61,158 bases of DNA from Actinophytocola algeriensis (GTDB taxonomy: Bacteria; Actinomycetota; Actinomycetes; Mycobacteriales; Pseudonocardiaceae): positions 1-61,158 of the forward strand of contig NZ_JACHJQ010000017.1 of assembly GCF_014203735.1 (NCBI RefSeq). Reading direction: 5' to 3'. Shown here piece after piece: positions 3,896 through 12,498 of this stretch. The position numbers were made by a program, and so were the translations under genes. Numbering within the stretch: position 1 is the stretch's first letter; every line of letters starts with the position of its first letter. The notes under the pieces are model-generated. The model made no database searches. It saw nothing but the letters and a program-made list of their open reading frames with translations, and was not told the origin of the DNA.

Positions 3896-4456
3896 TCATC
3901 GGGACTCGTTCTTCTCCAGCACCTGCATGAAGGCGCGGGACCATTCGGGCAGGTCGGGCCAGCCCCGGCAGGACACCATCGTGCCGTCCACGACGTCGGG
4001 CGCGTCGACGAAGACGGCGCCCGCCAGCTCCACGTCGTTCTTCAGCGGCGGGAACGCGGCCGTGGTGCGGCCACGAAGAAGTCCCAGCGCGGCAGGCACT
4101 TGTGGGCCGTGGCAGATCGTGCCGACCGGGAGCCCGCGTTCGAAGAAGTGCCGCACGATGCGTGCGACGTCGGGGTCGGTGCGGATGTACTCGGGTGCTC
4201 GTCCACCAGGGATCACCAGTGCGCCGTAGTCCTCGGGGTGCACGTCGGCGAAGGCCAGGTCCACGGGCAGTTGGTGCCCTGGTTTCTCGGTGTAGGCGTC
4301 CCAGCCCGGCTCGAAGTCGTGGACCACGAGCTTCACCGGGCGGGTCGTGGGCGCCGCCACGACCGCCTCGTGACCGCCCTCGCGCAGCCGGAACACCGGG
4401 TACATCGCGTCGAGTTCCTCAGCGGCGTCGCCGGTCAGGATCAGCACTCGCGTCAT
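3896..4456 (-). CDS. DJ-1/PfpI family protein (class I glutamine-amidotransferase fold)
   Basis: 186 residues. The start at 4456 is chosen because AAGGAG precedes it at good spacing and the family begins MTRVLILTGD; the frame is open further upstream but that stretch is antisense to a lectin domain. The nucleophile elbow is GTICHGPQV (Cys near residue 114), with the usual Glu in the N-terminal part and the VIPGGRAPEY loop. Members include intracellular proteases, chaperones and glyoxalase III-like deglycases, so the reaction is open; a role against reactive aldehydes from sugar oxidation would fit the neighbours but is inference. It lies 17 bases downstream of the ThuA/DUF1080 gene on the same strand, suggesting one transcript. 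Confidence 0.88.
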   Translation of the reverse strand: MTRVLILTGDAAEELDAMYPVFRLREGGHEAVVAAPTTRPVKLVVHDFEPGWDAYTEKPGHQLPVDLAFADVHPEDYGALVIPGGRAPEYIRTDPDVARIVRHFFERGLPVGTICHGPQVPAALGLLRGRTTAAFPPLKNDVELAGAVFVDAPDVVDGTMVSCRGWPDLPEWSRAFMQVLEKNESR

Positions 4457-4473
4457 TGCTCGCTCCTTGCGTG

Positions 4474-9033: not shown

Positions 9034-12000
9034 TCAGGGCAGGGTCCAGCGCTGGTTGGCGCCGCCGTGGCAGGTCCAGATGATGAGCTGGGTGCCGTCG
9101 GCGGAGCCGGCGCCGTTGGCGTCGAGGCACTTGCCGGAGCCGGGGTTGACCAGCGAGCCGCCGGCCTGCGGGGTCCAGTTCTGCGCGGCGCCGCCGTTGC
9201 AGGCCGACGACTGGACGAGAGCGCCGTCGGCGGTGCCGCCGCCTGCCACGGTCATGCACTTGCCGAGGGCGCGCAGGGTGCCGCCGTCGCGGGTCCACTG
9301 CTGGTTGGTGCCGCTGTTGCAGGTCCAGAGCTGGATCTTGGCGCCGTCGGCGGTGCTGGCGCCGTTGACGTCGACGCACTTGCCGCTCGAACCCACGATC
9401 GGCCCGCTCGTGACCGCGCCCGGGGTACCGACACCGGGACCGACGAACGTGATCGAGTCCAGGTCGTAGGTGGTGGCCGAGGTGGACTTGAACACCACGA
9501 ACAGCTCCACCGTGCCGGCCGGCCGCGTCACCGCGACCGGCGCCAGGCTCACGTAGTTGTCCCACCCGCCCGTGCTGCCCACGGTCGCGGTGGCCACCAG
9601 GGCGCCGGTCGGCGACCCCGACCGGAGTTCGATCGTGCCACCCGGTCCGGGCGAGGACACCCGGAACGAGACCTGGTTGATGCCGGTCAGGTTCATCGGG
9701 GTGAACGAGATCCAGTCGTTGTTCCCGATGTCCCCGATGCGCTGGCCACCCTCCGCGCCTGCCTGGGCCACGACCCGGATCCCGGACGAACCGGTGAAGT
9801 GCTCGGCCTGCTTGTGCTTGGGCTGCAGCACGACCTGGGTCCTGCCGGTGAGCGCGGGCACGCCGGCCGCCCCGTTGTCGGTGTAGACCGCGTCGGCGAC
9901 GTAGAACAGGTTGGAACCGGGACTGTGCCCGCCGTCGCTGTGGGTGGCGAGCACGCCGGAGCAGCCCGGCTGCGGGTCGAGCGGGTGCGCGTGCTCGTCG
10001 TGCCCCAGCGCCGCGGTCGTGATCACCCTGGCGCAGTCGATCGTGCCGTCCTCGGGGTCGGTGACGCTCACCGAGTACGGGATCTCGTCGCCGAAGTCGA
10101 ACATGCCGCCGTGCGGGGGCGTCGTGAGCCGGACGGTGGGTGCGGTGTTGCCCACCGTCACCGGCACGTTGGCCACGCCGGTCCGTCCGTTCGGATCGGT
10201 GACGGTGAGCTGCGCGTTGAACAGCCCGCGCGCGGTGTAGGTGTGCGACGGGTTGGCCGAGGTGGAGCTGCCGCCGTCGCCGAAGGTCCACCGGTAGGTC
10301 AGCGGGCCGCCCTCCGGATCGGCCGACCCGGCGCTCGAGAAGCTCACGGTCAGTGGCGACCCGCCGGAGGACGGGGCGGCGGTCGCCCTGGCGAGCGGTG
10401 CGCGGTCGCCGGAGATGTAGTCGATCCGGTAGAGCGCGGAGTCGGGGTTGTCCCTGCCGAACCCGCTGCCCCATTCGAGGAGGTACAGCGAGCCGTCCGG
10501 CCCGAACTTGGCGTCCATCGGGGACCTGAACGTGAGGTTGGCCAGGAACCTGTTTATCTTCAACAGGTTCCTGGACGAGTCGAGGCGGAACTCGTGCATG
10601 GTGTTGCGTGCCCACTCGCCGAAGAACGGCGTCTTGTCGAAGTACTGCGGGAACTTCGTGGGCGACGGGTTCGCCGGGTCGTAGTGGTACACGGGGAAGG
10701 CCATGGGGGCCTCGCCGCCGCCACCCATCTCCGGGAAGGCGTTGCCGTTGCTGCCGTTGCCGTACCAGACGGTGGCCGGCCGGGCCGCGGGCAGGGTGGT
10801 GAGCCCGGTGTTGTTGGGGGAGCTGTTGACCGGCGCGGCGCAGTTGAACTTGGCGCCGGAGGTGTTGTTCGCGAAGTTGTAGTCGGTGAACGGGATGTTG
10901 TTCGCCACGCAGTACGGCCAGCCGTAGTAACCAGGGGACGTGATCACGTTCCACTCGACCAGCCCACCCGGGCCGCGGTTCGCGTTGTCGGACCCGGCGT
11001 CCGGGCCGTAGTCGGCCAGGTAGATGGTGCCGTCGGTGTCCACGGTGAACCGGAACGGGTTGCGGAAGCCCATCGCGTAGATCTCCGGCCGGGTCTGCGC
11101 GGTGCCGGGGGCGAACATGTTGCCGGACGGGATCGTGTACGTGCCGCCGGACTCCGGGTGGATGCGCAGGATCTTGCCGCGCAGGTCGTTGGTGTTGGCC
11201 GCGGTCTTCTGCGCGTCGAACAGGCTGCGTCCCGACCGCTCGTCGATGGGGGTGTACCCGCTGGACTCGTGCGGGTTGGTGTCGTCACCGACACCGATGT
11301 AGAGGTTTCCGCCGGGGCCGAACGTGAGGTACCCGCCGGTGTGCCCCGGCTCGGACTGTCGTGCGGCCGGGAAGGACAGCAGTATCCGCTCGCTGGCCAG
11401 GTCGAGCGTGTCACCGTTGACCGTGAACCGCGACACGCGGTTGATCTCCTGCGAGCCCGCGGGCGAGTAGTACAGGTACACCCACCTGTTGGTGGCGAAG
11501 CCGGGGTCGAGCGCCACGCCTGCGAGACCGTCCTCGCCGCCGGTGTAGACGTTGAGCGTGCCCGCGGTGACCGTGGTCCGGGTGCTCGGCTTGTAGATCT
11601 TCAGCTGGCCGCCGTACTGGGTGTAGAAGACCCGGCCGTCCTGCGCCACGTCCAACGTGCCCGGCGCGACCGTGTTGCTGTCCAGCTCGACCTTGTCGTA
11701 GCTCGCCCACACGGTGGGCCCGCAGTCAGCGGGGAGCGTGCCGGCCGCGGTCCGCACGCCGCCGAGCACGTGGCTGCGGAACAGCGGTTCGGAGTACGCG
11801 GAAGCCTGGTGCCCCATGGCCGTCGCCCACAGACGGCCGCCTTCGACGTTGCGGCACCAGGAGATCGGGTGATCGGCGCCCATCGCGGACGAGCCGGGGT
11901 TGTACGTGGTCTCGTCCGCGGTCACCAGCACGTGCACGTCACCGCGGGCACTGCGGTTGAAGTTGTACCACTCCTCGGTGCGGTTCCAGCGCTGCGGCAG

Positions 12001-12498
12001 CCCCTGCCCGGACGGGTGCGCCTGGTCGGCGACCTTGGCCGTGCCCGCGACGATGGCGGAGTGCTGGGTCATGGTCATGCCGAGCATCTGGTCCCACCAC
12101 GGGAACTCGCTCTCGATGTTCATGTCCGTCGCGTTGTGGATGGCGACGATGCCGCCCCCGTTCCGCAGGTAGGTCTGCATCGCCGCGCGTTGCGCCGCCG
12201 TGGTCCAGACCATTCCGGAGGTCTGGAACATGATGACCACGTCGTAGGTGGCCAGGGTGGCGTCGGTGAAGACGGCCGAGTCCTCGGTGTGGGTGAGCTG
12301 CCACGCGTTGTCGGCCGCCATCTGCTGGAACATCGCCACCCCGGCCGGGATGGAGTCGTGCCGGAACCCGGCGGTCTTGGTGAACAGCAGCACCTTCTCG
12401 CCCGCTGCCGGGCCCGCGGGCGCGGCGGGGGCGTTCATGGCCAGCACGAGCAACGCGCTGACGAACGCGATCAGCAGCTTGGTGGTTGTGTGTCTCAT
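9034..12498 (-). CDS. secreted ThuA - sugar dehydrogenase - PKD - CBM6-like - CBM13 megaprotein
   Basis: 1154 residues; the start at 12498 has GGAGG seven bases upstream and a Sec signal (hydrophobic stretch 8-24). Order: ThuA about 35-250 ([37 protein letters not shown]), GSDH-type propeller about 265-680 ([29 protein letters not shown] with the expected His, [25 protein letters not shown]), PKD about 705-795, CBM6-like about 905-1030, CBM13 to the end. In effect it is the 933-residue neighbour with a ThuA domain fused in front. Fusion of ThuA to a dehydrogenase argues that both act on the same substrate. First of a probable four-gene minus-strand operon running to 3896. Confidence 0.9.

Follow-up and report, generated by a model that had tools for sequence, protein, structure and literature searches.

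What chemistry is carried out by secreted proteins that combine ThuA, GSDH and DUF1080 domains on lectin tails? The question is raised by an operon of Actinophytocola algeriensis (Pseudonocardiaceae; assembly GCF_014203735.1), found within positions 1 to 61,158 of contig NZ_JACHJQ010000017.1; we refer to this whole stretch of 61,158 nucleotides as the window. In the order of transcription, the operon encodes a ThuA-GSDH protein, a second GSDH protein and a ThuA-DUF1080 protein (proteins 1, 2 and 3), followed by a DJ-1/PfpI family protein. A preliminary description had proposed that the set oxidises plant glycans and then cleaves them. Having followed up this idea, we see an even chance that the operon products are secreted, stay bound to the glycan and oxidise it before cleavage. 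Two new findings weigh most: related propellers have electron-carrier partners, and the clamp for pyrroloquinoline quinone (PQQ) is missing. No description of the operon set was found in the literature searched, which covered few subscription journals.

A GSDH-like propeller without the PQQ clamp

The model of the propeller (predicted local distance difference test score, pLDDT, of 94) has 3a9g, 7cdy, 2ism and sGDH, of the sGDH/Asd fold, as its top Foldseek matches. For comparison with sGDH we aligned 38 rows, chosen for diversity from 118 domains (40 were picked; one partial and one other were dropped). His144, Arg228, Asn229 and Pro248 are kept in all 38, and Gly247 in 35. The clamp of the PQQ carboxylates is gone: Lys377 and Arg408 occur in no row, Arg406 in two. 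As a control, four Asd-like enzymes of the same genome have both clamp arginines (4/4), position 377 being Arg, Gly, Arg and Lys. The roles of Arg406, of Arg228-Asn229 (by analogy with Arg430-Asn431 of the pyranose dehydrogenase CcPDH) and of Gly247-Pro248, which presumably offer carbonyls to calcium, are our assumption; Arg621 of CcPDH probably corresponds to Arg406. Those of His144, Lys377 and Arg408 are described in the available part of PMC6881789.

The propeller does not fall in family AA12, to which CcPDH belongs. No AA12 chain is among its 13 PDB sequence matches and the first AA12 fold match comes at rank 36; the Arg406 position is Arg in 2/38 rows, there is no AA8 domain, and CBM13 or CBM6 stands in place of CBM1.

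Most members have a further feature at the active site. Of 82 propellers without an N-terminal ThuA, 80 contain the string Cys-Cys-His; where ThuA precedes the propeller, 11 of 36 contain it and 25 lack the pair. In the aligned rows its His is the catalytic one. The Runella propeller is without the pair although it has a cytochrome. In eight-blade alcohol dehydrogenases, a disulfide ring of adjacent cysteines lies over PQQ (available part of PMC8546591); the likeness of Cys-Cys-His to it may be taken as an analogy only.

We then compared the propeller with the PQQ biosynthesis protein PqqE in 71 genomes of the order, all at least 95% complete. The propeller is found in 16, PqqE in 10 and both in 5. 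PqqE is thus absent from 11 of the 16 propeller genomes, including ones with 12, 9 and 7 propeller copies, and its association with the propeller is weakly positive (5/16 with it against 5/55 without; Fisher p 0.04). This absence is not decisive against PQQ, since E. coli uses PQQ without making it. Together with the lost clamp, it nonetheless takes away the support for PQQ plus calcium, the cofactors that had first been suggested for the dehydrogenase. On these sequence grounds the PQQ reading is weakened: with catalytic His and Arg-Asn kept and the clamp lost, the propeller appears not to be a standard PQQ enzyme.

Electron carriers accompany some related propellers

A redox role for the propeller, as the preliminary description assumed, is supported by its partners in relatives, outside the window. 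Among plasmid records, 23 matched the propeller and four were opened; three hold a carrier. A cytochrome c domain with CxxCH is joined to the propeller in Runella and, split over two open reading frames (ORFs), in Gemmatirosa, both Haladaptatus proteins have a cupredoxin domain, and Paenibacillus is without a carrier. The propellers of all four lack the PQQ clamp too. In Haladaptatus (L125, 781-7577), the propeller-cupredoxin protein adjoins a ThuA-propeller-malectin-cupredoxin protein, with an IclR regulator near.

In the genome of A. algeriensis itself, the sole match to PF00127 (25.2 bits in one scan; 21.1 against a cut-off of 21.2 in another) lies next to a ThuA-propeller-DUF1080 triple fusion (L022), which is flanked by a multicopper oxidase on its opposite side. 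We considered seven triple-fusion loci: L022 and the full set of six further matches of this type that combined a low score with a long frame (L128-L133, of which L131 and L133 share one genome). Both a multicopper oxidase and a cupredoxin are near the fusion in six of the seven. They take opposite sides in five, as in L128, L129, L130 and L132; in L133 both are downstream, the cupredoxin being fused to a second DUF1080. By motif assignments that we take as given, all six loci have type 1 copper ligands in the cupredoxin and, in the oxidase, the His motifs expected of a two-domain enzyme; the L128 cupredoxin scores under the Pfam threshold. L128-L130 share one order: a ThuA-propeller or propeller gene (truncated at the border of the fetched stretch), two AP_endonuc_2 genes (the second with a leader-like start in L128), the oxidase, the ThuA-GSDH-DUF1080 fusion and the cupredoxin. 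PqqE is absent from G032 and G055, the genomes that hold L132 and L133.

DUF1080 and 3-keto sugars

The ThuA-DUF1080 part of protein 3 was modelled with 30 rows (pLDDT 90, predicted template modelling score 0.90). Foldseek matches its ThuA part to 4jqs, 4pxy, 4e5v and 1t0b. For the DUF1080 part, the first several matches are structural-genomics 'putative glycosyl hydrolases' without tested function; later ones are 8v31, 8tda (3-keto-2-hydroxy-glucal hydratase), 8rr2, 9fbe (3-keto-glycoside eliminase/hydratase) and 3osd (BT2157). As modelled, DUF1080 of protein 3 has the fold of solved 3-keto-glycoside eliminase/hydratases. We take 8v31 and 8tda to be part of a paper on broad-specificity glycan breakdown; for the residue roles in 8rr2 and 9fbe, no paper on those structures was found in the literature search. 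DUF1080 has been linked to 3'-ketolactose, and BT2157 named a 3-ketotrehalose hydrolase (available part of PMC9007349).

Of 36 ThuA-GSDH genes, 16 have an AP_endonuc_2-like gene as immediate neighbour in the same orientation, and six of these neighbours have a twin-arginine (Tat)-like leader by a crude pattern. The 'sugar phosphate isomerase/epimerase' proteins of published operons, presumably of the AP_endonuc_2 kind, include tested 3-keto enzymes. They are eliminases or hydratases, according to the parts available of PMC10628242 and PMC7676230. The fold neighbours and the AP_endonuc_2 genes of relatives thus both support the link to 3-keto chemistry drawn at the outset. AP_endonuc_2 and Gfo/Idh/MocA genes are both found beside relatives, and neither is among the genes adjoining the window operon.

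The core of the operon is a gene pair

A scan for DUF1080 domains returned at least 558 encoding stretches. The best 80 were kept and, with the window, make 81 loci, a sample biased to close relatives; they were read with a simple gene caller of our own and domain profiles from the window and its paralogues. The propeller gene lies directly upstream of ThuA-DUF1080 on the same strand in 75 of the 81, with a median gap of 51 bases. The remaining loci comprise one fusion (a Nonomuraea protein with propeller, ThuA and DUF1080 in a single chain, confirmed by Pfam), four unpaired cases and one that starts at a contig edge. At the core of the operon stand two genes, the GSDH-like propeller followed by ThuA-DUF1080. 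A contiguous run of three genes is present in 5/81 loci (the window, L036, L055, L068 and L076). On this check of relatives, the gene order is not confined to the present genome; the margin is wide for the pair and slim for the three genes. Among the fetched loci, Actinophytocola xanthii (Pseudonocardiaceae) is the sole case besides the window with all four genes in a row.

DJ-1, which had been taken for a carbonyl-removing member of the set, adjoins the pair in 2/81 loci (any DJ-1 match in a stretch of about 20 kb: 6/81); we reject it as a detoxifying part of the system. Regulators similar to GntR/FCD are near the pair in 10/81 loci and proteins similar to the GH95 neighbour in 16/81, the window included in both; GH95 was confirmed with Pfam in the window and L045 only.

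Tail type is the same in both partners of all 75 pairs (66 Ricin_B, 9 CBM6). We reject this match as proof of functional pairing: on a FastTree tree of 76 pairs (the 75 and own-genome paralogue L020) tail type switches twice, jointly both times, and two joint changes cannot reach significance. Within an operon, the lectin tails of the two partners are often homogenised, in some cases until identical, much as gene conversion would do (e.g. L066, L074, L082). In 27 of 66 pairs the tail is nearer to its partner's than to any orthologous tail; those of the window are not homogenised (0.63 vs 0.79). In 20/81 loci, nearly all Micromonospora and Asanoa (e.g. L064, L106, L107, L113), the pair is preceded by a cluster of a TatD-like protein, a phosphodiesterase, a polyprenyl synthetase and an AP_endonuc_2 protein, a run which we take to resemble the ebo cluster. 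A similar one follows a triple fusion of the own genome (L021, 10279-15896).

A proposed pathway and its alternatives

The electron carriers of relatives, combined with the DUF1080 fold, give support to 'oxidise, then cleave'. In the first step, the propeller of proteins 1 and 2 would oxidise one sugar of a plant cell-wall glycan, most likely to a 3-keto unit, using a cofactor held otherwise than PQQ is in sGDH. DUF1080 of protein 3 would then break or hydrate the glycosidic bond at this unit by elimination or hydration, and the ThuA domains may also act on it, by a chemistry left unspecified. The CBM6 and CBM13 modules of the proteins would hold the enzymes on the glycan. Judging from the gene context of relatives rather than the window, electrons could pass in some actinomycetes to a cupredoxin, a two-domain laccase-like multicopper oxidase and finally O2, and elsewhere via a cytochrome c or cupredoxin fused to the propeller. 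The last reactions of the route could fall to proteins encoded next to relatives, namely AP_endonuc_2 proteins, some of which have a Tat-like leader, and Gfo/Idh/MocA oxidoreductases. Of the original proposal the outline stands; its cofactor is likely wrong or incomplete, and C3 oxidation by the propeller is unproven.

We are more tentative about a fuller version: extracellular, oxygen-linked cutting of glycans through 3-keto units, by a clamp-less propeller with a new cofactor or a new hold on PQQ and, in most stand-alone members, Cys-Cys beside the catalytic His. Actinomycetes would use a cupredoxin and a laccase-like oxidase as its electron acceptors, Bacteroidota and Gemmatimonadota cytochrome c, and haloarchaea a cupredoxin. 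All of this holding at once is possible, if rather doubtful.

Several observations weigh against oxidation followed by cleavage. The propeller lacks the PQQ clamp. Among the Asd-like enzymes, the catalytic His is present in 3/4 and Arg-Asn in 4/4, and four HHIP-like propellers of the same genome keep His and Arg-Asn without the clamp; because of the latter, conservation of these residues alone is no proof of redox catalysis. Characterised GSDH-type enzymes oxidise C1 of aldoses, not C3, so that C3 oxidation would be new for the fold, and no tested activity of an operon-type propeller or of ThuA was found in the literature searched. As to copper proteins, L131 has neither cupredoxin nor multicopper oxidase, and L128-L130, three of the five relatives with both, are of one genus. 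Neither gene is beside the window operon or at propeller loci L134-L136, and PF00127 is matched in 2 of 16 propeller genomes against 38 of 55 others, an undercount given that some cupredoxins fall below the Pfam threshold. With no general co-occurrence, we reject the idea that cupredoxin partners the family across whole genomes. On the side of DUF1080, deletions of BT2157 and BT2158 gave no growth defect on raffinose-family sugars (available part of PMC11501099), and a DUF1080 protein from Thermogutta is described as an endo-xanthanase that has broad glucanase activity (available part of PMC10881899).

The latter report would suit a conventional PQQ/calcium aldose dehydrogenase of the sGDH or AA12 kind, acting from its lectin tails on C1 of free sugars or chain ends to give electrons or lactones, with DUF1080 as an independent glycanase. 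So would the best fold matches of the propeller, which are PQQ sugar dehydrogenases, the retained His144, Arg228, Asn229 and Gly-Pro motif, the PqqE of the own genome (529 bits) and the higher frequency of PqqE where the propeller is present. We judge it unlikely nonetheless: Asd-like enzymes of the same genome keep both clamp arginines that the propeller has all but lost, with Lys377 gone as well, and the many propeller genomes without PqqE point the same way, if not decisively.

Less likely still is a non-redox propeller, an HHIP-like scaffold that binds glycans and leaves ThuA-DUF1080 as the sole enzyme. HHIP is among the close fold matches, its heparin complex included, and the clamp-less HHIP-like propellers share the His and Arg-Asn; but such a scaffold would fit poorly with the cytochrome c and cupredoxin fusions and the copper-protein neighbours of relatives, or with His, Arg, Asn and Pro conserved in 38/38 rows. 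Least probable of the three is that the keto group comes from elsewhere, by a Gfo/Idh/MocA enzyme, a GMC oxidase or a reaction of oxidase and mediator, and that the propeller, like some beta-propeller lyases, acts on the 3-keto unit as lyase, epimerase or hydratase. In its favour, Gfo/Idh/MocA-like genes lie at most three genes from some members (L021, L054, L057, L134, L135) and the propeller lyase Streptogramin B lyase is a distant fold match (rank 43). Against it, the set is secreted but the Gfo/Idh/MocA proteins have no clear signal peptide, the three hits of a crude pattern falling at the Rossmann start, and the fused electron carriers are left unexplained.

Layout of the operon and its neighbours

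The operon is as first described, with three secreted multi-module proteins and a DJ-1 gene on one strand with short gaps (Table 1). The module list was right for ThuA, DUF1080, GSDH and CBM13, and had left the PKD and CBM6 of proteins 1 and 2 unnamed. The domain matches of the three large proteins are far beyond chance: ThuA (PF06283) scores 227 and 263 bits (cut-off 33.4; E-values 3e-67 and 4e-78), GSDH (PF07995) 126 and 121 bits in matches that span the first two thirds of the model (cut-off 25; 2e-36 and 1e-34) and DUF1080 (PF06439) 136.5 bits (cut-off 26.8; 1e-39), with lectin E-values of at most 2e-26. Intergenic gaps are 35, 25 and 17 bases with the start of gene 2 at 8998; with 8992, the choice of our gene caller, the first gap is 41. 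By reading of the sequence, the N termini of the three large proteins are signal-peptide-like and that of DJ-1 is not.

Table 1 Features of the operon and its neighbours in the window.
Feature	Position	Strand	Basis or remark
Secreted protein 1, ThuA-GSDH-PKD-CBM6-Ricin_B/CBM13 lectin, 1154 aa	9034-12498	minus	Pfam
ThuA of protein 1	11752-12396	minus	
Six-blade GSDH-like propeller of protein 1	10411-11691	minus	
Secreted protein 2, GSDH-PKD-CBM6-Ricin_B/CBM13 lectin	6197-8998	minus	Pfam, model; first half of conserved pair
GSDH-like propeller of protein 2	7559-8878	minus	
Cys-Cys-His of protein 2	8483-8491	minus	His aligns with catalytic His144 of Acinetobacter sGDH
Secreted protein 3, ThuA-DUF1080-Ricin_B/CBM13 lectin, 565 aa	4474-6171	minus	Pfam, model; second half of conserved pair
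ThuA of protein 3	5431-6063	minus	
DUF1080 (PF06439, 3keto-disac_hyd) of protein 3	4867-5391	minus	
Ricin_B/CBM13 lectin of protein 3	about 4486-4842	minus	
DJ-1/PfpI family protein, 186 aa	3896-4456	minus	same direction; not a conserved member
GntR/FCD regulator	13158-13964	plus	divergent; possible operon controller
GH95 family protein with Ricin_B lectin tail	854-3709	plus	convergent neighbour
GH10 xylanase, C-terminal part, with Ricin_B lectin tail	1-816	plus	cut by contig end

The GH95 and GH10 genes next to the operon support the plant-glycan setting already proposed. Ten neighbour proteins of relatives were scanned, nine of them lectin-tailed, and the matches include GH95, GH10, ArabFuran-catal (a label that we take as GH54), GDSL esterases, a GH141-module protein and a GH39-like one, whose match is under its cut-off. 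With the window's GH95 and GH10, these lectin-tailed neighbours suggest decorated hemicellulose or pectin side chains as the target.

The own genome (9.73 Mb) has 14 ThuA matches, two being halves of one split domain, eight DUF1080 matches, one of them under the family cut-off, and 25 GSDH matches. Twelve propellers are of the operon type: nine fused to ThuA (two of these also carry DUF1080), two before ThuA-DUF1080 and one alone. In the L022 fusion protein (6123-9947), ThuA is divided in two by an F5/8 type C module, and two ThuA pieces are seen in L128-L132 as well. Another DUF1080 group, apparently secreted, joins PA14, a DUF7133-like stretch and a C-terminal DUF1080 (L031, 6640-9648; L030, 6404-9258, called as two genes; probably L032, 6957-9920). 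A pqq cluster lies at L033 (8869-11750), with PqqE identified by model and flanking PqqC/D/B-like genes by reading of the sequence; no propeller of the operon type is in the 19 kb around it.

Comparison with known systems

The levoglucosan operon lgdA-B1-B2-C and the Agrobacterium GlycDH/OGE operons follow the same eliminase/hydratase logic, with AP_endonuc_2 and Gfo/Idh/MocA genes like those beside relatives here. They act on small glycosides, the levoglucosan one with nicotinamide adenine dinucleotide (NAD), whereas the present set is secreted, carries CBM13 and CBM6 and has a presumed beta-propeller oxidase. Caulobacter LacABC with the periplasmic DUF1080 protein CCNA_01705, grouped here with the DUF1080 enzymes BT2157, 8v31, 8tda, 8rr2 and 9fbe, resembles it in placing beside a dehydrogenase a DUF1080 whose proposed site of action on 3-keto sugars is extracytoplasmic. 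There, however, the dehydrogenase is LacABC and not a GSDH-like propeller, and the available part of the source describes no ThuA fusion or lectin tails.

On the propeller side, CcPDH (AA8 cytochrome b-AA12-CBM1) is likewise secreted and joins a six-blade propeller to a carbohydrate-binding module and a redox carrier, but it has a defined PQQ site and no ThuA or DUF1080 partner. The soluble GSDH-type enzymes sGDH and Asd share the fold, catalytic His, Arg-Asn and Gly-Pro motif; they differ from the operon propeller, which has lost Lys377/Arg406/Arg408 and, in members without N-terminal ThuA, nearly always has Cys-Cys-His.

Implications

The loci with oxidase, triple fusion and cupredoxin make electron transfer directly testable. 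If the proposed pathway is true, the annotation 'PQQ-dependent sugar dehydrogenase' may be wrong on the cofactor for a large group of proteins, and many soil actinomycetes would hold an uncharacterised oxidative, extracellular way of opening plant polysaccharides, parallel to glycoside hydrolases and lytic monooxygenases.

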